NCBI GenBank assembly: GCA_021846565.1
Contig: JAJZWS010000001.1
Span: 19,810 to 83,809 of the forward strand
Direction of reading: 5' to 3'
DNA length: 64,000 bases
From: Bacillota bacterium
GTDB taxonomy: Bacteria > Bacillota > Sulfobacillia > Sulfobacillales > JAIMBI01
In this document: piece after piece, positions 32,866-50,085 of the stretch
How the letters are laid out: the number at the start of each line of letters is the position of its first letter
How positions within the stretch are numbered: position 1 is the stretch's first letter
Program-made: the position numbers and the translations under genes
The notes under the pieces: model-generated
What the model saw: the letters and a program-made list of their open reading frames with translations, nothing else
Database searches by the model: none
What the model was told of the DNA's origin: nothing

Positions 32866-32957
32866 GTCGTGCCCCCCACCGTCAAACGCCGCGCCCGCGC
32901 CCGGAGTTGGTCCGGCTCGCGACCTCGATTGATGAAACCGCTGCAAACATTGCGGCC

Positions 32958-32963
32958 ATTATA
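32958..32963 (-). promoter_or_regulatory. -10 element for the PBP2/slipin genes
   Basis: The minus strand reads TATAAT here, 92 bases before the PBP2 start. A matching -35 hexamer was not seen. It is the only AT-rich promoter-like patch before the gene. Confidence 0.45.
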
Positions 32964-33012
32964 GTGCCCCCGCCCTGCCGAACGCCAGGTGCGGGGGCCG
33001 CCGGGCCCCGTA

Positions 33013-33190
33013 ACGGCAGCGTCGAGTCGTCCAAGCGCTTTGGCCGAGAATCGGCCGTCGGGGTTCCCAAAAGGTGATGGTGCACCGACGAGGACGGGGT
33101 CGAAGCCACGGAACGCGGAGGAGTGTGGCGGCGGCCGCGGCGGAGGTGAGATCCGCTCGCCCGCCGGGGCCCGTCCCATTCAGCGGCCCC
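33013..33190 (+). repeat. Dispersed repeat A, copy 1
   Basis: About 175 bases that match 36772-36950 in direct orientation. Both copies carry GGCAACG/GGCAGCG...GTTTGGCCGAGAA.CGGCC, then GGGGTCGA.G..(A)CGGAACGCGG-like sequence, and end in GATCCGCTCGCCCGCCGG. Identity looks like roughly 70 percent by eye, with small indels. Neither copy has a convincing reading frame, so this is an old duplicated non-coding unit or a decayed mobile-element end. Confidence 0.65.
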
Positions 33191-33259
33191 ATCCACCATC
33201 GTCAGCGCACCTCGTCGGCGAGCCCACGGCCGCCGAGGCAGTCGTGGCGGACCCTGAGG

Positions 33260-33358
33260 GCAAGGCACCGTTGCGCGGCGGGCGCCATTAGGGATCGCCA
33301 CGGTGTCCAGCATGACTGGTTCGGTGTGCAGGGCGTCAGCGGACTACATCGAGCCTCA
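33260..33358 (+). repeat. Dispersed repeat B, copy 1
   Basis: About 95 bases whose reverse complement occurs at 37188-37285. The core GGTTCGGTGTGCAGGGCGTC followed by a near-identical CGGACTACATCGAGCCTCAG is shared almost exactly. Because repeat A is in direct orientation while B is inverted, the two units were rearranged relative to each other. Confidence 0.7.
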
Positions 33359-33599
33359 GCGGTTCGAGCCGTGCGACCACCCCTGGCCGCCTCTCAGTCC
33401 TTTCTCCCGTGACGGGGCTTTGGCACTTCCTCGTAGCGGGTGGGCCTACGTTCGCAGACGTTGGGAATCATCCAACGGGCCGTGCGGCCGTCTTTTGGCC
33501 GCCCGGCTCACCCCAGAAGGATGGTGGTCAAACGTTGTCCACATGTCTGATCGTGCGCATGATGGCCGGGGATGCGGGTGGGTTTGGCGACGGGAGGAC

Positions 33600-33782
33600 A
33601 TGCCGGGGAGGCTGCCGATGCCGATTCTGCCGGCAGGAGACCTGAGGCGCCGTCCCGCTCGGCTGCCGGACGACGTGGACACGGCGCGGCCCTGGTCCCC
33701 GGACGTCGACACGTTGGGGCTGTCCGAACGACCCGGCACTGCGCCGATGTCGCTCAGCCAGGTGGAGGGGATGTATCAATAG
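33600..33782 (+). CDS. Small unknown protein (60 aa)
   Basis: An ATG behind GACGGGAGGAC opens a 60-codon frame, MPGRLPMPILPAGDLRRRPA ... PMSLSQVEGMYQ, with mostly G/C third positions, as in the real genes nearby. The track shows it only as the 3' part of a longer frame (33303-33782) that starts inside repeat B. No family is recognised. It lies 24 bases before another small gene that also has a good ribosome site, so the two may form a pair. It could be an intact accessory protein or part of a lost mobile element. Confidence 0.4.
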   Translation: MPGRLPMPILPAGDLRRRPARLPDDVDTARPWSPDVDTLGLSERPGTAPMSLSQVEGMYQ

Positions 33783-33806
33783 TGGGAGGCACCCGGAGGA
33801 GGCCGC

Positions 33807-34053
33807 ATGATTGAAATGTACGATGAGGGCGCCGCCGGAGAGCCGTGGTGGGCCGATGGCGACGTGATGCTGTCGTCACACGCTGCCCATCGTGATTGGC
33901 GGCCGCGTGCTGGCATTGCCCGTCGAACGCGCCCCCGAGCTGGACCGGCCTGATCTCCGGACTAAGCAAATCTGGGCATTGAACCTCGCTAGCCGGCGCC
34001 TCTTTCAGTCGGCGGGTTTCTTACTGGACTCCACGGACGTTGATGGACGTTGA
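33807..34053 (+). pseudogene. Small unknown gene with a frameshift
   Basis: An ATG behind CGGAGGAGGCCGC starts MIEMYDEGAAGEPWWADGDV and runs out of frame near 33880. The +1 frame then continues with good codon use as LPIVIGGRVLALPVERAPEL ... LNLASRRLFQSAGFLLDST until TGA 34051-34053. One extra base near 33878-33884 explains both halves and would restore a protein of about 80 residues. No family is recognised. The 3' end runs into three tandem copies of a 10-base unit. Confidence 0.45.
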
Positions 34054-34065
34054 TGGACGTTGATG
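34036..34065 (+). repeat. Three tandem copies of a 10-base unit
   Basis: GACGTTGATG occurs three times in a row at the end of the frameshifted small gene. The 10-base period is not a multiple of three, so changes in copy number would shift any reading frame across it. Confidence 0.85.
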
Positions 34066-34405
34066 AAGCTGGTCTGCCCTGTGAACGATATCGGTTGGAC
34101 CTGCGCCGCTCAGCCACCCTTTGACCACAAGCAGGTAGAGGCTGCCTACCTCGGCGGGGTGGCCATGCATAAACCCCGAGGCTGCACCTTTCGGCACGGT
34201 GCGTGCTGACCCGGCCGGCCACCTGGGGCCACGGCTCCGCCGTACGGGGTAGCGTCCCTCCCGCGGGCGCGGCTGGGCGCCACGACCGTCCTCGCGTGCC
34301 GCGCATCGCCCTCTGGTCAATCCCGTCCGGATGGTAGAGGATATCGGAACAGGGGCCCACCGTTCACGCGCGTGGCGGGCACAACCGAGAGAGAGAAGGC
34401 ACAGC
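34066..34405. other. Gene-free leader before the FAD oxidoreductase
   Basis: About 340 bases with no credible gene. Short frames on both strands (for example, GFMHGHPAEVGSLYLLVVKG on the minus strand) hint at decayed coding DNA but match no family I can name. The ribosome site GAGAGAGAAGG of the following gene is at the right end. Confidence 0.4.
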
Positions 34406-35554
34406 ATGACCGAACAGCATGACGTCGTCGTTATCGGAGCCGGGTTGGTGGGTTTGTCGGTGGCCTATCATCTGGCGAAGAGAGGTATCCGCGACGTCGT
34501 GGTCCTGGAGCGCGAAGCCGCGCACGCGCAAGGCTCGTCGGGCCGCAGTGCCGGCGGGGTCAGGCTGGAGTTTTCCCACCCCAGCAGCGTCCGCTTTTCG
34601 CAATATGGCCTCCACGTGCTGGAGCACTTCGAGGACGAATTTGGCATCTCGCCGCAATTTCGTGCCTGCGGCTACCTGTTTGTCACCAGCGATCCGTCGC
34701 AGTGGGTTGCCCTGCAAGAGTCGGCGGTTATGCAGCGCGATCTCGGCGTGGCGGTGGAGACGCTGGCCGCTGCCGACATCCGTGGGAGTTTTGCCTACAT
34801 CAACTTGCCCGACTTGGTGGGGGGCATTTATGGTCCCCGCGACGGCGTCGGCGACCCCGCCAGCGTGGCCTACGGCTACATTCGGCGGGCGCGCCAGTTG
34901 GGGGTCGAGGTTCGCTTTCACGTTAATGTCGAAGGCATCACTGCGTCGGCGGGTCGGGTCACAGGCGTCCGCACCGCGTCCGGGCTCATCAGCACGTCTA
35001 CCGTCGTCAACGCGGCCGGGCCTCAGGCACGCGCGATTGGCCAAATGGCCGGCGTCGACATTCCCGTGCATCCCTATCGTCGGTCCATCTATGTTACCGG
35101 TCCCTTTGACGGGCTGCCGGAGAATTTGCCCATGACCTTGAATTTGGACAACACGTCTTACATTCGCCGAGAAGGCCGGTCGATATTGCTGGGCATGTCG
35201 GACCCGGACGAGCCCAGCTCTGAACTTGTCGAAACGGATCCGGCGGCGTTGGAGAAAATTATTGCGACGATTCTGCCGTGGATTCCGAGTCTCGAGCACG
35301 CAACCATTATGCGGGGCTGGGCCGGGCTTTACGAGATATCGCCCGACCAGTCGGCCATCATTGGCCCAACGGACGATCTCGCAGGCTTTTACTGCGCGAA
35401 CGGGTTCAGCGGCCACGGCTTTATGCACGCCCCGGCCACAGGTCGGGTTATTGCCGAGCTGATTGCCGGTGAGCCCCCGTTTGTGGACATCACGCCTTTT
35501 TATCTAAGCCGCTTCGCTCATCAGCAAACGGCCAGGGAAAACCTGGTCATATGA
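34406..35554 (+). CDS. FAD-dependent amino acid oxidoreductase (DadA/sarcosine-oxidase-like)
   Basis: A 382-residue flavoenzyme of the DAO superfamily. The FAD-binding Rossmann motif is DVVVIGAGLVGLSVAYHLAK (residues 6-25), followed by the GSSGRSAGGVRLEF segment typical of sarcosine, glycine or dimethylglycine oxidase relatives. The C-terminal YEISPDQSAIIGPTDDLAGF and ANGFSGHGFMHAPATGRVIA motifs are intact. The substrate is probably an N-methyl or small amino acid but cannot be fixed. It is the only intact large gene in a 4.7-kb decayed stretch, and its codons look less GC-biased than those of neighbours, suggesting later arrival. Confidence 0.85.
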   Translation: MTEQHDVVVIGAGLVGLSVAYHLAKRGIRDVVVLEREAAHAQGSSGRSAGGVRLEFSHPSSVRFSQYGLHVLEHFEDEFGISPQFRACGYLFVTSDPSQWVALQESAVMQRDLGVAVETLAAADIRGSFAYINLPDLVGGIYGPRDGVGDPASVAYGYIRRARQLGVEVRFHVNVEGITASAGRVTGVRTASGLISTSTVVNAAGPQARAIGQMAGVDIPVHPYRRSIYVTGPFDGLPENLPMTLNLDNTSYIRREGRSILLGMSDPDEPSSELVETDPAALEKIIATILPWIPSLEHATIMRGWAGLYEISPDQSAIIGPTDDLAGFYCANGFSGHGFMHAPATGRVIAELIAGEPPFVDITPFYLSRFAHQQTARENLVI

Positions 35555-35610
35555 CAGGCGATGGCGAGACTCGGGACGTTCGGGAAGGCCGCCCGGACAT
35601 GACACAAACC

Positions 35611-35632
35611 GTCATCCAGTCGGGATGACTTT
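35611..35632 (+). terminator. Weak hairpin terminator after the FAD oxidoreductase
   Basis: GTCATCC and GGATGAC form a perfect 7-base-pair stem with loop AGTCG, followed by TTT, 57 bases after the oxidoreductase stop. Short, but correctly placed. Confidence 0.5.
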
Positions 35633-35639
35633 GGCCCAG

Positions 35640-36771
35640 AGATTTTGGCCATCGGTCCATGGCGGCAAACGCCCACGGGCGATCGAGCGGCTCATCGCCC
35701 CGCGGCCAAAGATAAAGTCCCCCATGCAGCGGGGGAAGCACCTTCCCCACATCCAGCGTGTCCATAGGCGGGGGAGGAAGCGGAATCCGCAGCGGGGTCC
35801 GCCATTCCTGCCGGGGACGGCGGACCCCCCGGCCACATCGGCGACCTCGGCGTGCTGAACGGTGGCCCTCCGCACCGGTCGCTGAGTGGATCCGCGTAAC
35901 GCTCCCGCACCGCGTGATAGAAAAACATCAGGAACCCTCCGAGGCAGTACAGCGGCTCACCGAAGGATCACTCGCCGAGCCGCCGGACGAAGCGGCCCCG
36001 AAGCCAGCCATCGCGGTCGACAGAGCGCCCGACTGTCAGAACTGACGACGGCCGCCTTGCCTTGCTGGACACGTTGAGGATTCCTGCCCCCACTGAGGGT
36101 TGGTTCCCGCTCAGGGCTTGGAGATCCGGTTGAACTTGGGACCCCGCTCCTCAAGGCGGGACTTCCGGCAGCGCGTGAGCTCCCGCAGTGCACGCGCCAC
36201 TCCGTCGGTGAACGACTGCCGACCCGGCGCTGGGTTTCGTGTCGAGCGGCCTCGCGACGGCTAGGGGCGCGTGGCGCGCATCACCGGGGATGCGGTTTCG
36301 CGTGCGAAGCCGAGGGTCCCCGACGGGACGAGGCGCTCACGGCGCCTCGGGTCAAGCGGGGTACGGTCGGGCAAGACGCAGACGGGCGGACCCGGTCACG
36401 GACATCGGACGGACCCGTGGCCACAGTCGTTCCGAACGCAGTCTGCTCAGGCGGCGCCCGGTGGGTTTTCGTCATGTGTCAGAGTGCGCGACGTCGGCGC
36501 GACCGCTTGGGGCAGCGGGTGCCACGTGGCCAGGCCGCCTCGAAGCCGGCTTGCGCCGCCGCATAGCGGAGGTGGAACCGTTGCGGGCGTGAGACGGTCC
36601 CTGCACGGTCCCCGGGTCGGCCGCCACCGTGCATGGCCATCACGTGGGCGCTACACGCTTTCGCACCGGGAGCACCTCCGTGCGTTGACCTTGGCGGTCA
36701 ACGAATGGGAGGTGTTGCCGCCTGTCTGACCCGGCCTCATTCCTTGAGTGTTTGCCCTGAGCCACCCGGCA
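35640..36771. other. Decayed DNA without an intact gene
   Basis: About 1.1 kb in which frames are short and mutually exclusive. On the minus strand, fragments such as LYCLGGFLMFFYHAVRERYA (near 35900) and KVLPPLHGGLYLWPRGDEPL (near 35730), in different frames, look like parts of one decayed protein. Two adjoining stem-loops occur at 35719-35748: CCCCC/GGGGG and GGGGAAG-CAC-CTTCCCC. Nothing could be assigned to a known transposase family. Confidence 0.4.
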
Positions 36772-36950
36772 ACGGCAACGTCGGGCCGTTCACGAGCGGT
36801 TTGGCCGAGAACCGGCCAGCCACGTGGCCATCCCGAGATGAGGCACCGAACCGCATGGGGTCGAGGCTCGGGAACGCGGCGGAGCGTGGTGTCGGTCGCA
36901 GCGGAGGTCAGATCCGCTCGCCCGCCGGCGGTTTTGCCGCGCGACGGGGC
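36772..36950 (+). repeat. Dispersed repeat A, copy 2
   Basis: Direct copy of 33013-33190, about 3.7 kb away. Shared blocks include TTTGGCCGAGAA, GGGAACGCGG/GGAACGCGG and the near-identical GATCCGCTCGCCCGCCGG at the right end. No intact gene overlaps it. Confidence 0.65.
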
Positions 36951-37187
36951 GCCGTCGAGGGTATGACGGGGCGGTCCCTGCGGCACCTCTGGTCCAGAAA
37001 CGGCCACTGGAGATTGGCGTGGCTCGGGTCCTGGTTCGCGCCCCGCGGTCCACCGGGAGGACCGTAGGGGGAACTCTCCGCAGGGTCACGGGCCGTCACG
37101 GCCACTTGCACCGTCCGGGGATTTCCTTGGGCGGTCCGGGGTCCGGGCACCTGCTTCTCGGCGACGAGATGCCGGCTGGACCGCTGA

Positions 37188-37285
37188 GGCTCGATGTAGT
37201 CCGGTGACGCCCTGCACACCGAACCGGCCATGCTGGACGCTGTGGCGGTTCCTGATGGGGCCGCCGCTTGACGGCGCGCTTGTAC
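37188..37285 (-). repeat. Dispersed repeat B, copy 2 (inverted)
   Basis: Reverse complement of the unit at 33260-33358. On the minus strand it reads CGTCCAGCATGGCCGGTTCG GTGTGCAGGGCGTC and continues through CTACATCGAGCCTCAG. The spacing from repeat A differs from copy 1, and the orientation is opposite. Confidence 0.7.
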
Positions 37286-37325
37286 TCGGCGCGGGGCCGG
37301 CGCAACCACTGGCTGGGCGCGTTGA

Positions 37326-37685
37326 CCAAGTGAACCGGGCCGGCCCGGGTGCAACCAAACCCGACGAGCGTCGCAACTCACAGACTGGATCGATCCGTTC
37401 GGCGTGGCAGGCCGCGTGGTCCCCGTCGATGCCTTCTCTGCTCAGACGGAGGCCGTACGACAACTCCCTGCCGCCTCTCAATTCCATCGATTCTGGCGGG
37501 CCCTTTCCGGCACCATCGAGGCCCATGGCCAGCACTCGCGATCGGTGTCGAGAAAAATCGTGGACGAGATCCCATAAGTCGCCATAAAAGGTGGTCTCCC
37601 CATGGCACAGTTGCTCGAGAATGCGTGCGGCGTTGGGGAGCATTCCGCCACCGGGCGAATGGTGCAGGAGGGCGGTGGATGGTAA
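37326..37685 (+). pseudogene. Coding remnant with internal stop upstream of the DUF4012 gene
   Basis: One plus-strand frame reads TDWIDPFGVAGRVVPVDAFS, then QLPAASQFHRFWRALSGTIE and HSRSVSRKIVDEIP, before TAA at 37575. After the stop the same frame continues VAIKGGLPMAQLLENACGVG and ends at TAA 37683-37685, overlapping the DUF4012 start. Amino-acid composition and G/C third positions look like real coding sequence. No family is recognised. It may be the tail of a former glycan-locus gene cut off by the rearranged repeats to its left, or a short ORF starting at ATG 37602 may survive. Confidence 0.35.
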
Positions 37686-39466
37686 TGGGGCGAATCGGGC
37701 GACCGCGCACGATCTGCGCGGCGGCGCTGATGGCGGTCCTGGTGTGGCCGGGTGGGCCGCTCATCGTCCTGGCATGGTCGCTCCACAGCGCGGCTGGCAC
37801 AACCGCCCAGGTCATGCGGGAGCGGACCGCTGCCGAAGCGGCGCTGGTCGCGAGCGCGTCCGACGGATTCACTGTCAGGGCTGTGAGCGCGCAGCTCACG
37901 CAGTTGAATCGCGAGTTGGGGCGGGCTGCATGGGCCCTAGGATGGCTGGGGGGCCAACGCAGTGGGTCCGTGATGGGACCCGAGGAAGGCACGGTGACGG
38001 CGGCGGTGCGGGGAGCGGCGCTGTTGGCCCGTGCAGCGGCGGAGGTGTGGCGCGTCCGGGTGGAAGGCAGCGTGCTGGGACCCCGAGGGATTCGCGCCGC
38101 GCTGGACGCTCTGCCCGCCGGCGCGGCGGGTATCCAGGATGTGCGTCAGGCTGCCCGCTCCCTCCCGGTGCCGCAGGCGTGGAGGCGCGCGTTGGCGGGC
38201 GCGGCGCCGCTGGTGGGCCGGCTGGCGGCCATGCGTCGGCCGCTCGCCGCCGCCCTGGGATTTCCCCGGCCGGCTCGCTATCTGGTGCTGTTTCAGGACG
38301 GGGCGGAACTGCGCGCCACTGGCGGCCTCTTGGTGGCGTACGGCTGGCTGACCATGGACCAGGGCCGCGCAGCGCTGCGCTATGGCGGCGGTATTTTGCC
38401 ACTGTCGCGCCGGGCGACGGCCCAGGTGCCCGCGGGATCGGTGCTGCACCATTTCTTTGGCGAATCAACGCTGAGCTTGCTGAATGCCAACGACCGGCTG
38501 GGCGGGCCGGCCAGTACCGCCGCCATCCTTCGCCTGTATCGCTCGGTGCCTGAGGCACCCCCCGTGGTGGGCGTCGTGCTGGTCAATTCGTGGTGGATTG
38601 CCGGCCTGTTTGGTCTCTCAGGCCCGGTCGCCGTCCCCTCGCCTCAAGGGCGCGTGGTGCTCACCACCGCCACGGCGCCGCGGCAGTTGGAGCAGCTGGC
38701 CGAGCGCGACCAGGTTCCCGGGCTGCCCCGCATGGCGTTTTTGGGCCCGGTGGTCGATGCGCTGGCGGCGCGCCTGATGCCGCACGGCGTGCCCAGCGCG
38801 GCCCTGCTGGGGGCAGTGTGCGTCGGGGTCCAGTCAGGAGGCGTGCTGTGGGAGCCGGACGGGTCCGGGCTCGCGCGCCTGGTCGGCTCCTTGGGGTGGA
38901 GCGGGGCGCTGTGGCCTCCGCCAGCGCATGACAACTACCTGATGCTGGTGAACCAAAACTTTGGCGGGTTAAAGGACAATCTGTACCTCACACAGCAGAT
39001 GCAGGTCACGGTGGCGGGCCGCCGGGAGCAGATGCGTCTCGCGCTCACACTGCCGCATCGCGTGACAACCCAGACGACGTGGCTGTTGGGATCGTACGAG
39101 GGGTATGTGTCGGTGGTCGTGCCGCGCGGCACCCGGCTGGTCCGCGCCACCGGATTCGTGTCGCCGGTCGTGGTCGGCTCCCAGACCGCGCCGCCAGCCA
39201 CCGTCGTGGGAGGGGCGGTCACGGTGCCGGTTCACTTGGGGGCGCCGTCGAGTGCCGCCGCCGTGAGCCTGACCCTGCAGCTGCCGTCGACGGTCGCGCC
39301 GGACGCTCCGCTCGTGGTGCAGGCCCAGCCCGGGTGGCGGCCGGGGTCCACCGGGTTCAGGATCACCGTGGGGCGCTACAGCGTCCACTGGCAGGACCCC
39401 CGAGGGGCCGTTTTGGCGCATGCCAGCGCGCACCGCCTCGGGTTGACACCGCTGGGGGCGCCGTGA
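37679..39466 (+). CDS. DUF4012 family exported protein
   Basis: A 595-residue protein with an N-terminal membrane or signal segment (ICAAALMAVLVWPGGPLIVLA). The DUF4012 core is recognised by RYLVLFQDGAELRATGGLLV followed by the glycine- and Leu-rich domain. DUF4012 proteins are large extracytoplasmic proteins, commonly found beside exopolysaccharide genes, with no proven reaction. ATG 37679 (or 37685) follows AGGAGGGCGG. The track frame begins 110 codons earlier in decayed DNA. The stop overlaps the flippase start (GTGA), tying it to the glycan locus. Confidence 0.82.
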   Translation: MVMGRIGRPRTICAAALMAVLVWPGGPLIVLAWSLHSAAGTTAQVMRERTAAEAALVASASDGFTVRAVSAQLTQLNRELGRAAWALGWLGGQRSGSVMGPEEGTVTAAVRGAALLARAAAEVWRVRVEGSVLGPRGIRAALDALPAGAAGIQDVRQAARSLPVPQAWRRALAGAAPLVGRLAAMRRPLAAALGFPRPARYLVLFQDGAELRATGGLLVAYGWLTMDQGRAALRYGGGILPLSRRATAQVPAGSVLHHFFGESTLSLLNANDRLGGPASTAAILRLYRSVPEAPPVVGVVLVNSWWIAGLFGLSGPVAVPSPQGRVVLTTATAPRQLEQLAERDQVPGLPRMAFLGPVVDALAARLMPHGVPSAALLGAVCVGVQSGGVLWEPDGSGLARLVGSLGWSGALWPPPAHDNYLMLVNQNFGGLKDNLYLTQQMQVTVAGRREQMRLALTLPHRVTTQTTWLLGSYEGYVSVVVPRGTRLVRATGFVSPVVVGSQTAPPATVVGGAVTVPVHLGAPSSAAAVSLTLQLPSTVAPDAPLVVQAQPGWRPGSTGFRITVGRYSVHWQDPRGAVLAHASAHRLGLTPLGAP

Positions 39467-41013
39467 GCGGCGCCGTCGGGGCGCCTGACGCAGGCCGCGA
39501 GGTGGCGCGCCTGCCTCGCGATGTGCTGCGGTACCTGCCGGCGTCGGTCGTGCCGGCGCTGTGTGCGGTGGCCGGAGCCGCCCTGTTTACCCGGGTGTTC
39601 TCGCCCACGGCCTACGGGTTGTTCAGCTTGGTGGTGTCGGTCACCGGCCCAATCAGCACGGTGCTGGGACAGCCCACCGGACAGGCGGCCAGCCGCTTCT
39701 ACTCCGAGTACCGCGCTCGCGGCCAGGAATTGTTGTATCGGGGGGTCATGACGGCGCTGGCAGCTGCGACAGCCTCTGGGGCGCTGGTTCTCAGCGCCCT
39801 GGGGCTGGCGGTCTGGGCGTTCTCGGGGGGAGCACCAGCCAGCCGGCTCGCGCTTGTCGGCGCCGCCGGTCTATTGGTCCTGGGGTCCGCAGTGAGCACC
39901 ACGCTGCTGCCGGTGCTGGCAGCCCGCTTTCGCCCGCGGCCGTACGCCGCGGCCGTGATGGCCGCGGCGGTGCTGTCCGTGGCCGTGTCGGGAGCTCTCG
40001 TGCTGTGGGCGGGCCCCCACGTCGTGTACCTGGTGCTGGGTCCGGCCGTGGCAGCGCTGGTGGTATTGCCGCTGGTGGTACGCTACGCCGGCTTGGTGAG
40101 TCCCCGCCAGCTGCGGCTCATGATGCAGGGACCCGCCCCACGGCAGGTGCTGGCACGATTTGTCCGGTATGGCGTACCGCTCGCGAGCTGGTTCCTCGCG
40201 ATGTCACTGCTGAACAGCGGGGATCGGTACATTCTGGCGTGGTTTGCGGGCACGCGGGCGGTGGGGGTGTACAGCGTGAACTACAACCTGGCCAGCCAAT
40301 CGGTGGGCCTGCTGAACATGCCCATGGTGACCGCCGCCTGGCCCGTGATTGCGCGGCAGTGGGCAGGAGAGCGGCGGGCAGCCATGGCTCAGAGCCTGAC
40401 CGCGGTCTCCACGTTTTACCTGACGCTGTCGCTGGGCGTGGCCGCGGTGGTGTGGGCGGCCAGCCACCCCCTGGTCACTCTGCTGCTGGGACCCGCCTTT
40501 CGGGGGGGGGCCGTGGTGTTTGGTCCCATCCTGGCCGCCATGATCCTGTGGGGGCTGGCCCGCGTCGGTCAGAAGAGCCTGGAGCTGCATGAGCGCACGG
40601 GTTGGATGGTCAAAGACGCGGCTGTCGCCGCGGGCCTCTCCCTGCTGCTCACCGCGCTCCTGGTGCCGCACTGGTCGTACCTGGGAGCGGCGTGGGCGAC
40701 GGTGGCTGGGTATGCCGTGTACACGGCGCTCATTTGGCGGGACGCGCGGCGGTGCGTGCCCTGGACCTTGGAGGCGCCTTTGGGGCTGTCGACCGTAGCC
40801 ATCGCCGGAGCCGCCGCCATGGTGGTGCTTTTAGGACTGCCGCAGCCGAGTGCAGCCGTGTGGGCCGTGCCACTGGATGCTAGCGTGGCGGCCGTGCTTT
40901 ACGTGGCGGGTTTGGCAGGGCGGGAGTGGCTGCGTTTCCGGGGACGGCGGGACCCTCCCAGCGAGATATGGAAAAAAAAGTTTGCGGGATTGTTTCAGAT
41001 CAAGGGGATGTAA
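39463..41013 (+). CDS. Wzx-type oligosaccharide flippase
   Basis: A 516-residue MATE/MOP-superfamily protein with about 12-14 membrane helices. It starts LPRDVLRYLPASVVPALCAV and contains the flippase-like ALFTRVFSPTAYGLFSLVVS and DRYILAWFAGTRAVGVYSVN segments. Such proteins flip lipid-linked glycan units across the membrane. The GTG start overlaps the DUF4012 stop; the 128 codons added by the track are out-of-frame DUF4012 sequence. The TAA stop sits inside the promoter-like region of hddC. Confidence 0.87.
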   Translation: MSGAVGAPDAGREVARLPRDVLRYLPASVVPALCAVAGAALFTRVFSPTAYGLFSLVVSVTGPISTVLGQPTGQAASRFYSEYRARGQELLYRGVMTALAAATASGALVLSALGLAVWAFSGGAPASRLALVGAAGLLVLGSAVSTTLLPVLAARFRPRPYAAAVMAAAVLSVAVSGALVLWAGPHVVYLVLGPAVAALVVLPLVVRYAGLVSPRQLRLMMQGPAPRQVLARFVRYGVPLASWFLAMSLLNSGDRYILAWFAGTRAVGVYSVNYNLASQSVGLLNMPMVTAAWPVIARQWAGERRAAMAQSLTAVSTFYLTLSLGVAAVVWAASHPLVTLLLGPAFRGGAVVFGPILAAMILWGLARVGQKSLELHERTGWMVKDAAVAAGLSLLLTALLVPHWSYLGAAWATVAGYAVYTALIWRDARRCVPWTLEAPLGLSTVAIAGAAAMVVLLGLPQPSAAVWAVPLDASVAAVLYVAGLAGREWLRFRGRRDPPSEIWKKKFAGLFQIKGM

Positions 41014-41019
41014 TATACT
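40990..41019 (+). promoter_or_regulatory. Promoter for the heptose operon
   Basis: TTGTTT and TATACT are separated by 18 bases, at the end of the flippase gene and 28 bases before the hddC start. The stretch GATGTAATATACTG is strikingly AT-rich for this genome. It would let the heptose genes be transcribed apart from the flippase. Confidence 0.5.
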
Positions 41020-41046: not shown

Positions 41047-41739
41047 GTGGATGCGGTGGTGCTGGCGGGAGGACAGGGTCGTCGAATCCGCCCCGTGACA
41101 CAGGGACCGAAGTGCCTTCTGCCGATTGGGGGGGCGGCCGTGCTGGACCATGTGATTGGGTGGCTGTGCGCCGGTGGGGGCATCGATCGGGTGTGGGTGG
41201 CGGCCGGGTACCAGGGAGACCGGGTTCGTCAGCACGTCGCGGCGCGCTATCCCGCATCCCAAGTGCGGGTGGAGGTGGAGCCCGAACCCGCCGGGACGGG
41301 CGGCGCGCTGGCGCGGCTGCGCGGCAGCTCGAGCGACCCTTTGAGCGATCCGCTGGTGGTGGCAAATGGCGACACCATGCTGGTGGGTGACCTCGCGGGG
41401 CTCTTGCGGTGCCATGGGTCGTCCGCCGCGTGGGTCACGACGGCCGTGATTCCGCGGGGACGCCGCGATGCCGATGGCATGGCGGTGCCGGCCCTGCCCG
41501 GTCCGGTGCGGCGAATGGGCCGTGGCCTCTCCGGGCCCGGGACGGTGGTGAGCGCCGGCCTCTCGGTCATGAGCGGCGCCGCGCTGGACCGCGCGACCTG
41601 TCCGGGATCGCTGGAGGGGCTCTTGGCCAGCCTCGTCGCCGAGTGCCGCGGGTGGGTCTGGGCTTACCCCTGGCAGGCCGCGGTGGATGTGGGGACGCCG
41701 GCGCGCTACCGGGCGGCGGCAGTGCAGCATGGTGGCTGA
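41047..41739 (+). CDS. hddC: D-glycero-alpha-D-manno-heptose 1-phosphate guanylyltransferase-like nucleotidyltransferase
   Basis: A 230-residue sugar nucleotidyltransferase. The signature AVVLAGGQGRRIRPVTQGPK CLLPIGG lies at the N-terminus, and the conserved VVANGDTMLV and AVDVGTPARY are present. It would transfer GMP from GTP to heptose 1-phosphate, the last step to GDP-heptose. The family alone does not fix the sugar, but the next genes encode the kinase, isomerase and phosphatase of that pathway. GTG start after GAAAGGTGGG. The 3' end overlaps hddA by 11 bases. Confidence 0.78.
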   Translation: MDAVVLAGGQGRRIRPVTQGPKCLLPIGGAAVLDHVIGWLCAGGGIDRVWVAAGYQGDRVRQHVAARYPASQVRVEVEPEPAGTGGALARLRGSSSDPLSDPLVVANGDTMLVGDLAGLLRCHGSSAAWVTTAVIPRGRRDADGMAVPALPGPVRRMGRGLSGPGTVVSAGLSVMSGAALDRATCPGSLEGLLASLVAECRGWVWAYPWQAAVDVGTPARYRAAAVQHGG

Positions 41740-42823
41740 CACGACGGGGGACGGGGGCTGGCCCGTCGTCGCGGTGCGGAGCCGCGTGCCGCTCCGCGTG
41801 AGCTTCGGCGGCGGGGGCACGGACGTGGCTCCGTACGCCGAACAGGAGGGAGGCGTTGCGTTGTCGGCCACCATCGCCCGGTACGTGGTGGCGACGGTGG
41901 CGCCGCAGAGCACGTCGGAAGTGGCGGTACATTCCGTGGACTATCGCACAACCACCACCTTCAGCATTCACGGTGACCCGCTCTACGACGGCAACCTGGA
42001 TTTGGTGAAAGCGGTCGTACACCGCGTGGACCCGTCGTGGCGGTGCGGGCTGTCTGTGCAGCTGGAGTCCGACGCCATTGCGGGGTCCGGCCTTGGGGCC
42101 TCGTCGGCGGTGGTCGTGGCCACGATCTTGGCGGTGGCCCGGGTGTTGGGCGTACAGGTGGAGTGGGAGCAGGCGGCGCGGCTGGCGTATCGGGTGGAGC
42201 GGGAGGACCTGGGCATTGCGGGCGGGTATCAGGACCAGTACGCCGCTGCCCTGGGCGGGCTCAACTGGATGGAATTTGGTCCGGGCCCGGAGGTTCATGT
42301 CGAACCGGTGGCCGTGGCACGCGATGTCCTGGAAGAGTTGGAGTGCCGGCTCGTGCTGTGGTATGTGGGCAAGACCCATGTGTCGGGGGGCATTCTGGAG
42401 CGGCAGATCGAAAACCTTCGGGCCGGGCAGGGCGAGACCAGAGCCGCTTTGGACCGCGCGAAGTCGGTCGCCTATGACCTTAGGCGCGCACTGGTTCAGG
42501 GACGGCTCAACGACTTTGGCGCACTGTTGCACGAGGGGTGGGTTGCCAAGCGCCAATTTGCGACGGGGGTGACCGATCCCCAGATTGACGCGCTGTACGG
42601 GGCGGCGCGCGACGCCGGTGCGCTGGGAGGAAAAATTCTGGGCGCTGGCGGTGGCGGCTTTCTCTTGGTGTACGTGCCCGACAGCGAGCGGTCCCAGGTG
42701 CTCGGGACGCTGGAGCGGGTGGGCGGTGCCCGGGCTCCGAACTTGTTGTTTGATCAGCGAGGGCCCCGGACGTGGTGGGCCGGACGGACGGCGACAGCTC
42801 ATCCGCGGGGCTTCATTGCCTAG
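41729..42823 (+). CDS. hddA: D-glycero-alpha-D-manno-heptose 7-phosphate kinase
   Basis: A 364-residue GHMP-family sugar kinase that would make heptose 1,7-bisphosphate. Family motifs are PLRVSFGGGGTDVAPYAEQE near residue 25, the ATP-binding AIAGSGLGASSAVVVA near 112 and GGKILGAGGGGFLLVYVP near the C-terminus. These are typical of the HddA group of capsule and S-layer loci. ATG 41729, overlapping hddC, is preferred to the track start. Related GHMP kinases acting on fucose or galactose are less likely, given gmhA and gmhB downstream. Confidence 0.85.
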   Translation: MVADTTGDGGWPVVAVRSRVPLRVSFGGGGTDVAPYAEQEGGVALSATIARYVVATVAPQSTSEVAVHSVDYRTTTTFSIHGDPLYDGNLDLVKAVVHRVDPSWRCGLSVQLESDAIAGSGLGASSAVVVATILAVARVLGVQVEWEQAARLAYRVEREDLGIAGGYQDQYAAALGGLNWMEFGPGPEVHVEPVAVARDVLEELECRLVLWYVGKTHVSGGILERQIENLRAGQGETRAALDRAKSVAYDLRRALVQGRLNDFGALLHEGWVAKRQFATGVTDPQIDALYGAARDAGALGGKILGAGGGGFLLVYVPDSERSQVLGTLERVGGARAPNLLFDQRGPRTWWAGRTATAHPRGFIA

Positions 42824-42865
42824 ACGGGAAGACGCCCGGCCGAATTCCGGAGGAGGCGAGCGAAG

Positions 42866-43486
42866 GTGGGTGTGATGTCCGAGCCAGTAGGTGGGGAAGG
42901 TGGACGGTGGGCGCTCTTGGCCCGCCAGCGCGTGGCCGAAAGCCTCGCCGTCAAGCAGCGCATGCTTGCGGATCCCTGGTGGGACGACGCGGTGGATCGG
43001 GCGCTCGCGTTGGTGGCCGACGCCGCACGGTCAGGCCACAAGCTTATGATGTGTGGCAACGGCGGCAGTGCCTGTGACGCGCAGCACATGGCCGAAGAAC
43101 TGCTGGGGCGGTTCCGCCGCGAACGCGACGCCTGGCCAGCGCTGTGCCTCGGGGCCAACATGGGCGCGATGACGGCCATTGCCAACGACTACGGCTACGA
43201 CTGGGTGTTCAGCCGGGAGCTCGCGGCATTCGGACAACGCGGCGATGTGCTGGTGGCTCTGTCCACCTCGGGGCGCTCGCCCAGCATCTTGCGGGCGGCC
43301 GAGACGGCGCGCGCCATGGGAATAAGCGTGGTGGCGCTTACAGGCGAAGGGGGCGGCCCCCTGGCGCGGATGGCGGACGCCGCCCTGTGCATGCCGTCCG
43401 ACGACACGGCACACATTCAGGAAGCGCACATGACGTTTGGCCACGTACTGGCTGAGGTGGTGGAGCTGGTCCTGGCGGGCGCATGA
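42866..43486 (+). CDS. gmhA: Phosphoheptose isomerase
   Basis: A 206-residue SIS-domain enzyme that turns sedoheptulose 7-phosphate into D-glycero-D-manno-heptose 7-phosphate, the entry step of heptose synthesis. Diagnostic segments are MCGNGGSACDAQHMAEELLG, ANDYGYDWVFSREL, STSGRSPSILRA and DDTAHIQEAHMTFGHVLAEV. GTG 42866 lies behind GGAGGAGG; ATG 42875 is an alternative. Its stop overlaps the gmhB start. Order and identity fit the GDP-heptose branch used for S-layer glycans in Gram-positives. Confidence 0.92.
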   Translation: MGVMSEPVGGEGGRWALLARQRVAESLAVKQRMLADPWWDDAVDRALALVADAARSGHKLMMCGNGGSACDAQHMAEELLGRFRRERDAWPALCLGANMGAMTAIANDYGYDWVFSRELAAFGQRGDVLVALSTSGRSPSILRAAETARAMGISVVALTGEGGGPLARMADAALCMPSDDTAHIQEAHMTFGHVLAEVVELVLAGA

Positions 43487-44124
43487 AACGAGCCGCCGTC
43501 TTCCTAGACCGCGACGGCACGCTGGTCCACGAACGCGGTCCGGTGGCGGCGTTTTCGATCGATTGGCTTTATCCCTACAGCATTCCGACGTTGTTGCGGC
43601 TCCAGGCCATGGGGTTTCTGCTCTTCGTGGTCACCAACCAGGCAGCGGTGGCGCGGGGCTTGGTCACGGCGGATGAGGTGGACGCGGTCCACCGCGGGCT
43701 GGTGGCCGCGCTGGCTGCCGGAGGGGTCCTCCTGCAGGGCATTCGCTACTGTCCGCACCATCCGGACGGCATCGTGCCCCACTACCGCCGCCCGTGCGCC
43801 GGGCGAAAGCCCGCGGCGGGATTGCTGCGGCAGCTGGCTGGCGTGTTTGATGTGGACCTGAGTCGCTCGTGGATGGTTGGCGATCACGCAACCGATGTGC
43901 AGGCCGGGCAGGCGGCCGGCACACGCACCTGTTTGGTCGATACCGGGCATGGAGCCACCTGGGCCGCGTGGGCTGGGGGAATGCCGTCGGTCGCTCGCGC
44001 CTCGACGCTGGCCGACGTGCCGCGCGTGATCGCGCAAAAAAAAGTTCACCACCCCCCGGGAGAACGGCAGGACTTGACAATAAAGATAGAGAATGGGTCT
44101 ACCGAGTGGACGAAATATGCCTAG
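43483..44124 (+). CDS. gmhB: D-glycero-D-manno-heptose 1,7-bisphosphate 7-phosphatase
   Basis: A 213-residue HAD phosphatase removing the 7-phosphate to leave heptose 1-phosphate for HddC. The nucleophile motif is VFLDRDGTLVHE, with VVTNQAAVARG, CRKP-like CAGRKPAAG and GDHATDVQAGQAAG following. The usual zinc loop has C-x-H and C-x-C; here CPHHPDGIVPHYRRPCAG keeps the first three ligands but replaces the last Cys by Gly. About 30 C-terminal residues (KVHHPPGERQDLTIKIENGS) are not conserved. The ATG overlaps the gmhA stop. Confidence 0.85.
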   Translation: MKRAAVFLDRDGTLVHERGPVAAFSIDWLYPYSIPTLLRLQAMGFLLFVVTNQAAVARGLVTADEVDAVHRGLVAALAAGGVLLQGIRYCPHHPDGIVPHYRRPCAGRKPAAGLLRQLAGVFDVDLSRSWMVGDHATDVQAGQAAGTRTCLVDTGHGATWAAWAGGMPSVARASTLADVPRVIAQKKVHHPPGERQDLTIKIENGSTEWTKYA

Positions 44125-44130
44125 GGTGGG

Positions 44131-45165
44131 ATGGGTGTGGGGCGTGGAGAGGGTGCCGGGGCCGCGGATCGCGTCTCGGCCGATGCGGGCAGTGTGTCGG
44201 CCTGGAGCAGTCCGAACCACGTGGCTTCGCCTCAGTCGGGCATCGTGGTGGCGGTCATTCCGGCTCACAATGAAGAGCGCTTCATCGGAAGCGTGGTGTT
44301 GGCGAGTCGGCGCTGCGCCGCCGCCGTGGTGGTGGTGGACGACGGATCGACGGACCGAACCGCTCGGCTGGCTGAGGATGCCGGGGCCGTAGTCGTGCGG
44401 CAGGGGACTCAGGGCGGCAAGGCGCGCGCGCTGACCGTGGGGTTTCAGGAGGCGCGCCGCCGAGGGGCCGACGTCGTGGTGATGCTGGACGGCGATGCGC
44501 AGCATGACCCCGACGACATTCCGCGCCTAGCGGCGCCGATTCTGTCCGGTGAGGCGGAGGTCGTGATTGGCTCCCGCTTTCTGGACGCCTCGAGTGACAC
44601 GCCCGGGTGGCGCCGGGCCGGGCAGCGAGCTTTGACCGTGGCCACCAATGTCGCGAGCGGGCTGGCGGTGACCGATTCGCAATCCGGCTTCCGGGCGTTG
44701 TCGGGGCGCTTGGCGGCCGACATGCTGCTCACGAGCCGTGGACTGGGCGCCGAATCCGAAATGCAGTGGTGGCTGGCTCATGCGGCCCGGGATGCTCGGG
44801 TGGTGGAGGTAGCCATCACCGTGCGGTACCGCGATCCCATGAAGCGGAACCCCGTGCGGCACGGCTTGTTGGTGGTGGACACCCTGCTGCAGCTGGTGGA
44901 GCGCCGCCATCCGCTCCTGCTGCTCACGCTGCCGGGGATGCTGGCGGGGTTTATGGGAAGCTGGATCGGGGTGGGCTTGTTGCACGCGGCCCTGGTGGGG
45001 CGTGAGGTGTCGCCGCTTTATGGTGCGGTGGCGTTCCTGCTGTTCATCGCCGGGCTCCTGCTGGCGGTCACGGGCGCGCTGATGCACCGGCTCGAGGAGT
45101 TTCAAACGGTAATCCGTGAGCTCATCACCCGCGGGACGGCTGCCGGGCCGGGAGGGACGGCGTGA
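44131..45165 (+). CDS. Family 2 glycosyltransferase (polyprenyl-phosphate sugar synthase type)
   Basis: A 344-residue GT2 enzyme with two C-terminal membrane helices. The nucleotide-sugar motifs IPAHNEERFIGSVV, VVVDDGSTDRTARLAEDAGA and VVMLDGDAQHDPDDIP are clear, followed by IGSRFLDASSDTPGWRRAGQ, the pattern of DPM1-like synthases that load a sugar onto polyprenyl phosphate. The GDP-heptose made by the preceding genes is an attractive donor, but that is inference. The start is uncertain in the first 35 residues. A perfect TTGACA lies 52 bases upstream without a clear -10. Confidence 0.83.
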   Translation: MGVGRGEGAGAADRVSADAGSVSAWSSPNHVASPQSGIVVAVIPAHNEERFIGSVVLASRRCAAAVVVVDDGSTDRTARLAEDAGAVVVRQGTQGGKARALTVGFQEARRRGADVVVMLDGDAQHDPDDIPRLAAPILSGEAEVVIGSRFLDASSDTPGWRRAGQRALTVATNVASGLAVTDSQSGFRALSGRLAADMLLTSRGLGAESEMQWWLAHAARDARVVEVAITVRYRDPMKRNPVRHGLLVVDTLLQLVERRHPLLLLTLPGMLAGFMGSWIGVGLLHAALVGREVSPLYGAVAFLLFIAGLLLAVTGALMHRLEEFQTVIRELITRGTAAGPGGTA

Positions 45166-46190
45166 CGGCGCCCGACGTCACCGTGGTGATTGTCGTTTAT
45201 CACCAGCGGCGTGACCTGGAGCGGCTGTTGCCCACCCTGGCCCAGGCTTCCCGCGACCCACTCGAGGTGCTGGTGTTGGATAATGGCGCGCGGACCGCGT
45301 CCGGCGAGGACACCCGGGCATGGCTGGCCGAGGCCCACCCGGCGGTGCGCCTCCTCGCGTTGGACGCGAACGTCGGGTACGGGGCGGCAAACAATTTGGG
45401 AGTACTGGAAGCCCGGGGCGAATTCGTGCTGCTGCTGAATCCGGACACCGAAGTCCACCCCGGCGCCATCGACCGACTGCGGGGGGCACTCCCGCCCCAG
45501 TCCTTCGTGAATCCGTGTCTCCTGCTGCCCGACGGGCGCGTCAACGCCCTGGGTCTGGCAGTGAGCCCGGGAGGCATTGCGACGTGCGACGGCCTGTACG
45601 GGCCCGCGCCCACGGGCACGTCCCTCCGGGCGGTGGCGGCCCTGTCGGGAGCGGCCATCTTCGGGCGGCGGGAGGACTGGCTCAAGGTGGGGGGGTTCGT
45701 TCCTGAGTACTTTTTGTATGGAGAAGATGTGGAGTGGTCGATGAGGGCGCTTGCGCGCGGGTTTTCCCTGTTCTGCGTGCCTGACGCTCTCGTGGTGCAC
45801 CATTATCGGGCCTCGTTGCCGCCCCACAAGTGGTTTTATCTGGCCCGCAACCGGCGGCTCACGTTTTATTTGGCGCTCGAGGAGTCCACCCGGCGTCGGA
45901 TGCGGGCCGCGTGGACTCTCACCAATGTCGCCTTGCTGTTGTACGCGGCCGGGCGAGGCCCGCGGTACGTCTGGGCCGACGTGGCGGCGATGGTGTGGGT
46001 CTGGCACCGCCGCCGCTGGGTGGCGGATCTGGCGAGGCGTCTCGCGGCGCGGCGCATCGTCCCCGACCGCGAGGTGCTCCAACGGTGGGGTCACGGCGCC
46101 TCGCCGCGGGCGACCGAGCGATCCGGAGGCGGGTGGGGCGGCCGCCTCTACGACCATCTCGTGCGGCGACTGGCCGCCCGGGCGTCATGA
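45162..46190 (+). CDS. Family 2 glycosyltransferase (rhamnosyltransferase-like)
   Basis: A 342-residue GT2 enzyme of the WbbL/rhamnosyltransferase type. Key parts are VTVVIVVYHQRRDLERLLPT, LDANVGYGAANNLGV, the metal-binding LLLNPDTEVHPGA and the acceptor region FLYGEDVEWSMRALARGFSL. It should add a sugar to a lipid-linked intermediate on the cytosolic face. The GTG overlaps the upstream stop (GTGA) and the stop overlaps the next ATG, so it is part of a coupled run of glycan genes. Confidence 0.85.
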   Translation: MTAPDVTVVIVVYHQRRDLERLLPTLAQASRDPLEVLVLDNGARTASGEDTRAWLAEAHPAVRLLALDANVGYGAANNLGVLEARGEFVLLLNPDTEVHPGAIDRLRGALPPQSFVNPCLLLPDGRVNALGLAVSPGGIATCDGLYGPAPTGTSLRAVAALSGAAIFGRREDWLKVGGFVPEYFLYGEDVEWSMRALARGFSLFCVPDALVVHHYRASLPPHKWFYLARNRRLTFYLALEESTRRRMRAAWTLTNVALLLYAAGRGPRYVWADVAAMVWVWHRRRWVADLARRLAARRIVPDREVLQRWGHGASPRATERSGGGWGGRLYDHLVRRLAARAS

Positions 46191-47341
46191 ACATTGGGGT
46201 GGTGACCGCCACGTTTCCCCCTTATCGCGGGGGCACGGGGCACGTGGCGTTCCACAACGCCCGGACGCTCGCGGAACGCGGACATCAGGTGACCGTGTGG
46301 ACGCGGGCCACCGCCGCGGGACCCGGTGGGGCCTCCGATGGGGAGGGGCTGCCATTCCGCGTGATGCGGCTGCCGCCACTGGCCGCCGTGGGCAACGCAG
46401 CATGGCTGCCCCACCTGTCGTCACGACTTGCGGGCTACGAGGTGGTCCACGTCCACTATCCCGACATCTGGGGAGCTATTGCTGCCGCTCGAGCCACTGC
46501 GAGGAGCCGCGGGCGCCTGGTGCTGACGCTGCACAACCGTCTGGTGGATGGGGCGCCGACGGCTGCCGCCTGGGCCAAGGCGGCGGTGTTTAGGGGCTAT
46601 GAGGCATGGGTGACCCCGTGGCTCTTCCACCGGGCCCAGGCCCTGGTCGTAATGTCGACCGACCACTTTGCGACGTGGGGCCGCCCCCACGCGTCCGTCG
46701 CCGTCATTCCCCATGGCGTGGACGGCGGGCTGTTTTGCCCCCAGCCGCAAAGGCAGGCGCGCCAGCACCTGGGACTCCCCGAGCGCGGGGTCGTGCTGTT
46801 GTTCGTGGGGGCATTGGACGCGGCGCACCGCTTCAAGAATGTGCCGCTGCTGCTGGCCGCGCTGCGGCACCTGGACCCGGCCGTGCGGCTGGTGGTGGCG
46901 GGGGACGGCAACCGGCGGGTGGCGCTGGAGCACGAGGCGACCCGTCTGGGCGTCCGCCGGCAGGTGTGGTTTGTGGGCGCGCAGACGCCCAGCCGCCTGC
47001 CGGCGTGGTACGCCGCCGCCGACGCCACGGTGCTGCCCTCCGTGTCGACGGAGTCGTTCGGACTGGTCCTGCTTGAGTCGCTGGCCACCGAGACGCCGGT
47101 GGTGGCGACGGCGCTGCCGGGGGTGCGGACCGTGGTGCGAACCGGGCAGGACGGGCTCCTGGTGGAGCCGGGGCGTCTGGATGCACTGGTCCGCGCACTG
47201 CGCGTTCTCGTCCAGCGGCCCGCGTGGCGCCGGACGCTGGGTCGGCACGGACGGCGGCGCGTCGTGGAGCAGTACTCGTGGGGTCGAGCCGGAGAACAAC
47301 TCGAGGCGCTCTTTTCAGAACTGAGGACGGGTGGTGAGTGA
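46187..47341 (+). CDS. Family 4 glycosyltransferase
   Basis: A 384-residue GT-B enzyme. The N-terminal loop ATFPPYRGGTGHVAFHNART and the C-terminal donor site STESFGLVLLESLATETPVV are typical of retaining GT4 enzymes; VIPHGVDGGLF and the FKNVPLLLAALRHL segment also fit. The donor and acceptor cannot be read. ATG 46187 overlaps the preceding stop by four bases, while the track frame begins 119 codons earlier inside that gene. It is followed by an unknown coupled gene. Confidence 0.87.
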   Translation: MNIGVVTATFPPYRGGTGHVAFHNARTLAERGHQVTVWTRATAAGPGGASDGEGLPFRVMRLPPLAAVGNAAWLPHLSSRLAGYEVVHVHYPDIWGAIAAARATARSRGRLVLTLHNRLVDGAPTAAAWAKAAVFRGYEAWVTPWLFHRAQALVVMSTDHFATWGRPHASVAVIPHGVDGGLFCPQPQRQARQHLGLPERGVVLLFVGALDAAHRFKNVPLLLAALRHLDPAVRLVVAGDGNRRVALEHEATRLGVRRQVWFVGAQTPSRLPAWYAAADATVLPSVSTESFGLVLLESLATETPVVATALPGVRTVVRTGQDGLLVEPGRLDALVRALRVLVQRPAWRRTLGRHGRRRVVEQYSWGRAGEQLEALFSELRTGGE

Positions 47342-47864: not shown

Positions 47865-49111
47865 GCACGATGGACTTGGTGGTGGCCAACCTGGACGCCT
47901 GGCTGGCCACGATGCGCCAGACGGGCGGATATGGTGGGCCTGTCCCCCATTGGTGGGAGTCGGGCTTTCGCTATGCGGGGCCGGGCAGGGATTGGCGGTA
48001 CGAAGGCCTCTTGGCGGGGTATGCCGCGCTGTACCGTCGCACCGGTGCGGCCCATTGGCAGCACCGCCTCGCGATGGCGGCAGCGGACGTGCTGGCGGCC
48101 CAGCGGCCCGACGGATCCCTGGCCGCCTCGCGGTTCGAGGCGAATCCAGGCAGTTTGGGGACGCCGCACGAGGCGGCGGCGGCAGCCGGGCTTCTGGCGG
48201 CGCACCGTGTGTGGCCCCATCCCACCTGGCTGGCGGCCGCAGGTCGCATCCTGGACAACCAGATCGGACACCTGTGGGACCCCGCCACCCAGGGGTTCAA
48301 TGACCGACCCGAGCAATTTGGCCGCGTGCCCAACAAGCTCGCGACGCTGGCTGAAGCCTGCCTACTTTACGCGGCCGACACGGGTGACACACGCTATCTC
48401 ACCTATGCCGCCGCGGCCCTAGCCGACGTGTTGCACCTGCAGGTGAACGTGCGGGGCCGTCCGGAGAGTGGGGCGGTGCACCAACAGGCGGCGCCCGGTG
48501 GTGGGGATCGGCGCTTCTTTCCCTTTTACAATGCCCGCATCGTACCGGCGCTGTTGCTGGCCGCAGAGATGCTGGGCGAGGACCGGTATCGGACGGCCGC
48601 CCAGCGGATCGGCGAGTTCCTGAGTCGGGTGCAGAACCCCGACGGCAGCTATCCACAAGTAGTGTATGCGGGTGGCGCGCGGGCGGAGGGGCCCCGCTGG
48701 CTCGCAGGAACCGCCGAGGTGCTGCGGGCACAAATGCTGCTGGGGCGGACGGTCCCGGCCGTGGTCCAACACCGCCTGCTGGCGGGTCAGCTCCCCACCG
48801 GCGGCTTTCGGACCGGGGAGGGATTCTCGGGGGCGTCGGGGGTGGACTTTCGGGATGTGACGCCGGCCGTCGGGTGGAATGACAAAGTGCTCCGATGGCT
48901 GGCCGAGAGTGGGGTGGTCCCCGCCGCGCCGCCACCGCCCACGGTGCGGCCGGCCAGCATGTTGGTGACCGTACGCGGCCGCCCCGCCATTTGGCGGGAA
49001 ACGTCGGAGGCCATCACGATGGTGAGCGGGGGAGCGGACCGTGCGCTCTGGTACCGGTGGAACAAGCGCGAGCCATGGGCCAGCGGTGTGTGGGAGGTGT
49101 TGGCGGGATGA
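47861..49111 (+). CDS. Alpha/alpha-toroid protein, putative glycan-active enzyme
   Basis: A 417-residue soluble protein built of helical hairpins, with repeating segments such as WRYEGLLAGYAALYRRTGAA, LAMAAADVLAAQRPDGSLAA and RIGEFLSRVQNPDGSYPQVV. This is the pattern of six- or seven-hairpin toroids found in glycoside hydrolases, lyases and epimerases. No known catalytic motif can be assigned. GTG 47861 overlaps the upstream stop; ATG 47870 is also possible. Its stop overlaps a glycosyltransferase start, placing it in the coupled glycan operon. No export signal is visible. Confidence 0.6.
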   Translation: MSTMDLVVANLDAWLATMRQTGGYGGPVPHWWESGFRYAGPGRDWRYEGLLAGYAALYRRTGAAHWQHRLAMAAADVLAAQRPDGSLAASRFEANPGSLGTPHEAAAAAGLLAAHRVWPHPTWLAAAGRILDNQIGHLWDPATQGFNDRPEQFGRVPNKLATLAEACLLYAADTGDTRYLTYAAAALADVLHLQVNVRGRPESGAVHQQAAPGGGDRRFFPFYNARIVPALLLAAEMLGEDRYRTAAQRIGEFLSRVQNPDGSYPQVVYAGGARAEGPRWLAGTAEVLRAQMLLGRTVPAVVQHRLLAGQLPTGGFRTGEGFSGASGVDFRDVTPAVGWNDKVLRWLAESGVVPAAPPPPTVRPASMLVTVRGRPAIWRETSEAITMVSGGADRALWYRWNKREPWASGVWEVLAG

Positions 49112-50085
49112 GGCATGGCGAAGGGCCGACACGGGTGACGTGGCTGGTGGCTGGGTGGCACGTGGCCGCCGAACTGGGATCGTTTTTGGCCGCGTACCAA
49201 AAGCTCACCGACACGGCGGATGAACTGGTGTTGGCGGTGGGGGGGACGGATGGGAGTTTGGCGGCCGCGCGGGCCTTCCAACAGGCCCATCCGGAGGTTG
49301 GGCTCAAGGTGGTGGAGCAAGTGCCCAGCATGGGCAAGCAGGGGGCACTGGCCGCTGCCTGGCCACAGGTTACGGGCGATATCATCTACCTGACGGATAT
49401 GGACTGTCGACCCACGGACAGCGTGGCGCGCCCGCTGCTGGCGTGGATTCAGCGCGGGTGTGACGCGGTGACCGGTCCCATCCGTCCCCTGCCGGCCCAG
49501 GAGACGATGCCACTGGTCCGCGTGCAGTGGGCCGTGCTCCGCGCTCGGGATCGGGGTGGCGCGAGTCCCAGCCGTGGATTGACCGGGGCCAACACCGCCA
49601 TCACCCGCGCCATGATTGAACGGGTGGGTGCGTTTGACTGGGATGCGCCCACGGGGACGGACTATACCCTGGCCAAGCACGTGCTGGCCGCCGGCGGCTC
49701 GATCTGGCGCGAACCGGCGAGTGAGATGCCGGCGCGGTTTCCCGAGCGGGGGGGCCACTATGTGGCCAAGCAGGCGCGCTGGCTGGGGACCGTATGGCGA
49801 CACGGTTGGCGATACGGGGCATGGGACGAAGTGCGGGCGGTGAGTTGCACGCTGGCCATGCCCTGGGTGGCGCTTCTGCTCCTGGCAGCGGGGTGGTGGT
49901 GGCCGGGCGCCTGGGGGGGGTTGTTGCTGCTGGTCGCCGAAGCGCTTCGACGGCGGGCGCACTACACCGACTGGGCGGGCGTTCCCGTGGGGACGGCGAC
50001 CCTCATCGCGTCCGTGTTGGTGGACTTTTTGGCGGCCCTGGAAGCGACGCGCCGGGTCGCGGTTCGGAGGGGCCAGTGGACCTAG
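49108..50085 (+). CDS. Family 2 glycosyltransferase with C-terminal membrane helices
   Basis: A 325-residue GT2-like protein. The nucleotide-binding half shows ELVLAVGGTDGSLAAARAFQ, and the metal-binding DxD is in IIYLTDMDCRPTDSV; the acceptor region ANTAITRAMIERVGAFD follows. Hydrophobic helices near the end (MPWVALLLLAAGWWWPGAWG, VGTATLIASVLVDFLAALEA) anchor it in the membrane. ATG 49108 overlaps the previous stop by four bases. The sugar is unknown. Confidence 0.78.
   Translation: MRHGEGPTRVTWLVAGWHVAAELGSFLAAYQKLTDTADELVLAVGGTDGSLAAARAFQQAHPEVGLKVVEQVPSMGKQGALAAAWPQVTGDIIYLTDMDCRPTDSVARPLLAWIQRGCDAVTGPIRPLPAQETMPLVRVQWAVLRARDRGGASPSRGLTGANTAITRAMIERVGAFDWDAPTGTDYTLAKHVLAAGGSIWREPASEMPARFPERGGHYVAKQARWLGTVWRHGWRYGAWDEVRAVSCTLAMPWVALLLLAAGWWWPGAWGGLLLLVAEALRRRAHYTDWAGVPVGTATLIASVLVDFLAALEATRRVAVRRGQWT

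Follow-up and report, generated by a model that had tools for sequence, protein, structure and literature searches.

The window, a 64 kb stretch of DNA analysed as a whole, comes from an uncultured, high-GC member of the Bacillota and contains four consecutive forward-strand genes in the order hddC-hddA-gmhA-gmhB, preceded by a possible promoter element:

41014-41019, +, possible -10 hexamer TATACT ahead of hddC
41047-41739, +, hddC, GTG start
41729-42823, +, hddA, with the ATG at 41729 as its most likely start
42866-43486, +, gmhA
43483-44124, +, gmhB

The original prediction had placed a coupled cassette of this order in this interval, and both statements hold: all four open reading frames are found on the forward strand, and they overlap or nearly do so. 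Reading of the sequence puts the hddA start inside the end of hddC (11 nt overlap), and gmhA and gmhB share an ATGA. Comparison with three congeneric genomes revealed purifying selection on all four genes (dN/dS 0.10-0.32) without stops. A search of the window against Rfam gave no match.

The cassette lies within a larger group of genes, the recognisable members of which are as follows:

37679-39466, +, DUF4012 membrane protein (PF13196), first gene of the conserved cluster
39517-41013, +, Wzx/MOP-type polysaccharide flippase (PF01943, 63 bits)
44131-45165, +, family-2 glycosyltransferase (PF00535) with C-terminal membrane helices read from the sequence
45162-46190, +, family-2 glycosyltransferase (PF00535)
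46187-47341, +, family-4 glycosyltransferase (PF00534, PF13439)
49135-50085, +, family-2 glycosyltransferase (PF13641)
52528-54114, +, polytopic membrane protein that may be a GT-C glycosyltransferase or a polymerase; no Pfam match, conserved in relatives
54105-55262, -, family-4 glycosyltransferase (PF00534)
55262-56416, -, family-4 glycosyltransferase (PF00534)

The cassette thus sits between a flippase and six glycosyltransferases, as had been proposed, with four of the six on the forward strand, two on the reverse strand and other genes interspersed. After gmhB the order is two family-2 glycosyltransferases, one of family 4, proteins of 177 and 413 amino acids that both belong to no known family, a further family-2 enzyme, two large proteins without a Pfam match and the two reverse-strand family-4 enzymes. 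An AlphaFold model of the 52528-54114 membrane protein, built from 3 alignment rows, reached a pLDDT of 35 and was too poor for a structure search. The 413-amino-acid protein (47870-49111) is 85-91% identical in relatives and has neither a Pfam nor a PDB match; its sequence gives the impression of an alpha/alpha-barrel glycan-active enzyme. At the left edge of the cluster the DUF4012 gene adjoins the flippase gene in three relatives as well. About 4.7 kb (32947-37650) separate it from a PBP2/MrdA gene (30937-32946, reverse strand) and encode a DAO-family FAD oxidoreductase alongside roughly 2 kb without a coding signature; this segment is absent from the related genomes G003 and G004, where the PBP2/MrdA and DUF4012 genes are about 0.3 kb apart.

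An AT-rich promoter belonging to the cassette had also been suggested, and the region before hddC lends this weak support. The hexamer TATACT, or TATAAT, occurs about 30 nt before the hddC start at the same place in three of four relatives, so a weak promoter is possible there. Against this, it has no good -35 element, a scan for the sigma-70 consensus upstream of hddC found no full site, and the run of A residues before hddC is the 3' coding end of the flippase gene, which is largely kept in relatives. TATACT is one of nine TATANT sequences on the forward strand of the 64 kb.

The original prediction had every step from sedoheptulose 7-phosphate to GDP-heptose covered by these four genes. For HddA, GmhA and GmhB this is borne out by family and motifs; the assignment of HddC is weaker. 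Substrates are assigned by family membership throughout, and none of HddA, GmhA and GmhB reaches the curated equivalog cut-off, nor does HddC reach that of its model. The gmhA product scores 182 bits with TIGR00441 (curated cut-off 209), its top PDB matches comprise only phosphoheptose isomerases and DiaA, with the phosphoheptose isomerases first, and its residues H74, E78, Q185 and H193 match the zinc-ligand pattern of Neisseria gonorrhoeae GmhA (H61, E65, Q175, H183). It is thus a predicted sedoheptulose-7-phosphate isomerase. Two further SIS proteins that the genome encodes on contig C24 were considered as spare GmhAs and rejected, both being PRK02947-type phosphosugar isomerase-domain proteins; at 10888-12386 of locus L037 on this contig, two tandem PRK02947-type genes adjoin an N-acetylglucosamine-kinase-like gene. 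The gmhB product (131 bits with PRK08942; best PDB match 2gmw, E. coli GmhB) retains intact HAD motifs at D9-R-D-G-T13, T51, K109 and G133-D-H-A-T-D138, as given for GmhB in PMC8204981, and is predicted to be a heptose-1,7-bisphosphate 7-phosphatase of the HAD family. Its C-terminal tail past about residue 186 is not conserved. The fourth cysteine of the zinc loop (43795-43803) is replaced by glycine here and in two relatives and by asparagine in a third. Loss of this ligand was dropped as a peculiarity of the window GmhB, as the GmhBs linked to HddA in other Bacillota (L044, L047, L048 and L051) lack it as well.

The kinase is, as judged from its sequence, clearly a predicted heptose-7-phosphate 1-kinase, HddA. 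It scores 212 bits (E 1e-62) with the HddA model NF049969, below the curated cut-off of 600, versus 98 bits with a bifunctional fucokinase model, and its closest PDB structures are the heptose kinases 3k85, 4usk (WcbL) and 4n3o. The clustering with fucokinases that the original prediction had named as evidence against itself was therefore not seen. In WcbL, the R13A, D22A, Q162L, D163A and triple-serine mutants are all without activity (PMC4691232). R13, D22, Q162 and D163 correspond to R23, D32, Q168 and D169 of the window HddA, such that four of the five essential sites are kept, and S118-S120 correspond to A-S-S. The genome contains this one hddA. No HldE-type kinase (RfaE domain I) scored above cut-off in the genome, where the best sugar-kinase match reached 53.7 bits versus 345.

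HddC is the least certain of the four enzyme assignments. It belongs to the nucleotidyltransferase fold family. Its score with the HddC model is 45.6 bits, short of the cut-off of 300, compared to 63 bits with a mannose-1-phosphate guanylyltransferase model. Residues E78-A87, EPEPAGTGGA, align with YpHddC (6jq8) as the guanine-binding motif EXEPxGTGGA, and the G003 homologue has the exact EXEPLGTGGA (EPEPLGTGGA), a motif reported to be unique to HddC homologues and in which the first glutamate contacts guanine (PMC6981941). At this position the alignment shows glutamine in RmlA, GalF and GlmU, and also in the RmlA of this genome. The motif makes a predicted guanylyltransferase activity well supported, and we infer specificity for GTP; heptose as the sugar is supported by gene linkage. 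An HddC-like match on C13 was rejected as a second HddC, as it is RmlA (436 bits). The AlphaFold model of HddC (pLDDT 39, from 4 alignment rows) was too poor for use, and a fold search with it, in which MurU, GMPP and HddC were mixed at a TM of about 0.3, was set aside.

These scores raise the question of whether HddC might instead be a guanylyltransferase for mannose 1-phosphate (or another sugar) that happens to lie beside a heptose kinase, in which case the cassette would yield heptose phosphates while a different sugar is activated. Both the best profile and the best PDB matches of HddC are mannose-1-phosphate guanylyltransferases, a grouping forced with GMPPB is not rejected by the AU test (p=0.109), and the two activities are close, as YpHddC itself has been assayed with mannose 1-phosphate. 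We nevertheless consider this improbable: hddC directly overlaps hddA, in a pairing repeated in other Bacillota, HddC carries GTGGA versus GTAGP in GMPPB, and no phosphomannomutase gene was seen within the cluster. Moreover, when the homologue from G006, a genome of another genus in the same family, was added to the tree, HddC joined the hddA-linked nucleotidyltransferases and Yersinia HddC on a starred branch (98/94), separate from both RmlA and GMPPB. Of the groupings that the original prediction had named for its checks, that with RmlA is thus contradicted by the tree and that with the mannose-1-phosphate enzymes probably does not apply, although the AU test does not reject it. A pathway ending in ADP-, CDP- or UDP-heptose appears highly improbable. 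The ADP-heptose branch also uses GmhA and GmhB, and GmhB scores higher with models that bear the name of the beta-anomer (131 and 105 bits) than with one that bears that of the alpha-anomer (64 bits), these names being annotations; the kinase, however, is of the GHMP type, the genome lacks an HldE-type enzyme over cut-off, and the nucleotidyltransferase has the guanine-binding glutamate.

Taken together, the cassette very probably produces GDP-heptose for the downstream glycosyltransferases, with proposed export by the flippase to a surface glycan. One strong transketolase (800 bits) is encoded in the genome and is available for supply of the heptose precursor. After isomerization by GmhA, HddA would phosphorylate C1 with ATP to give the alpha-1,7-bisphosphate, GmhB would take off the 7-phosphate and HddC would join GMP derived from GTP to the alpha-1-phosphate. 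The downstream enzymes would then draw on the GDP-heptose for glycosyl transfer, and the lipid-linked unit, once complete, would leave via the upstream flippase to become part of a surface polysaccharide or a protein-linked glycan; this export route and a heptose-containing surface glycan as its product we infer from the gene content of the cluster. The family-2 glycosyltransferase directly after gmhB (44131-45165), which scores 133 bits with the haloarchaeal AglJ model and has dolichyl-phosphate-mannose synthase (5mlz) as its best PDB match, may be a user of GDP-heptose. By analogy with the GDP-mannose-using synthase it resembles, this enzyme could load heptose from GDP-heptose onto undecaprenyl phosphate, and the resulting polyprenyl-phosphate heptose could serve membrane-embedded glycosyltransferases acting outside the cell, a tentative idea that we regard as unlikely. 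We know of no description of a lipid-linked heptose donor of the polyprenyl-phosphate type.

Where the glycan goes is a separate matter, and an S-layer destination is compatible with GDP-heptose synthesis as set out above. The original prediction had drawn a parallel with the S-layer glycans of Aneurinibacillus, which would send the heptose to an S-layer glycoprotein glycan as in A. thermoaerophilus. The AglJ/dolichyl-phosphate-mannose-synthase-like enzyme within the cluster is in keeping with such a destination, as is the listing of many Bacillota with S-layer glycoproteins (PMC2943079). However, the SLH domain (PF00395) has no match in the 95.7% complete genome, leaving the S-layer parallel unsupported, no S-layer protein gene was recognised in the cluster, and an exopolysaccharide or wall polysaccharide fits a flippase with many glycosyltransferases equally well. 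An S-layer anchored by other means would be compatible with the missing domain, yet on balance an S-layer destination is unlikely. Elsewhere in the genome there are three genes for phosphoglycosyl-transferases and three of the Wzy type.

The congeneric genome G002 has the whole cluster, and so does G003 up to the contig limit; in G004 the left part is present until the contig stops. G006 has the cassette alone, with its gene order unchanged and unrelated genes after it. Across a sample of 399 Bacillota genomes, an HddA-like kinase (E <= 1e-40) was counted in 25, and at several of these loci the kinase gene is accompanied by gmhA, gmhB and an HddC-like gene. Two of them, L041 (G153) and L045 (G411), share the identical order hddC-hddA-gmhA-gmhB but are only about 46% identical in HddA and 30-32% in HddC. 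The rarity implied by the original prediction was therefore overstated, as the cassette recurs across the Bacillota and had already been described (in PMC4221730 and, according to PMC10680097 and PMC8204981, by Kneidinger 2001).

In Aneurinibacillus, for which the GDP-heptose pathway was reconstructed according to citations of Kneidinger 2001, the same four enzymes occur in a Gram-positive-type host and a surface-glycan setting, whereas the window host is uncultured and high in GC, with no S-layer (SLH) protein evident. Acholeplasma oculi has the four genes side by side as well (Aocu_04590-620; PMC4221730), although listed in the order hddA-gmhA-hddC-gmhB and in a wall-less host. The capsular heptose genes of Campylobacter jejuni (Cj1423-Cj1425 and Cj1152; PMC10680097) cover the same HddC, GmhA, HddA and GmhB reactions, but there GmhB is encoded elsewhere and further enzymes modify GDP-heptose, none of which was recognised in the window. 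As the four-gene set is known from other Gram-positive bacteria, the window cassette is a sound but ordinary further example, which for specialists adds a data point and leaves the picture unchanged. It adds predicted GDP-heptose synthesis in a lineage of uncultured Bacillota for which the closest relatives in collections are metagenome-assembled genomes. The cassette is stable within the genus and common to another genus of the family, and the locus contributes a compact, divergent HddC together with an adjoining family-2 glycosyltransferase that may use its product.
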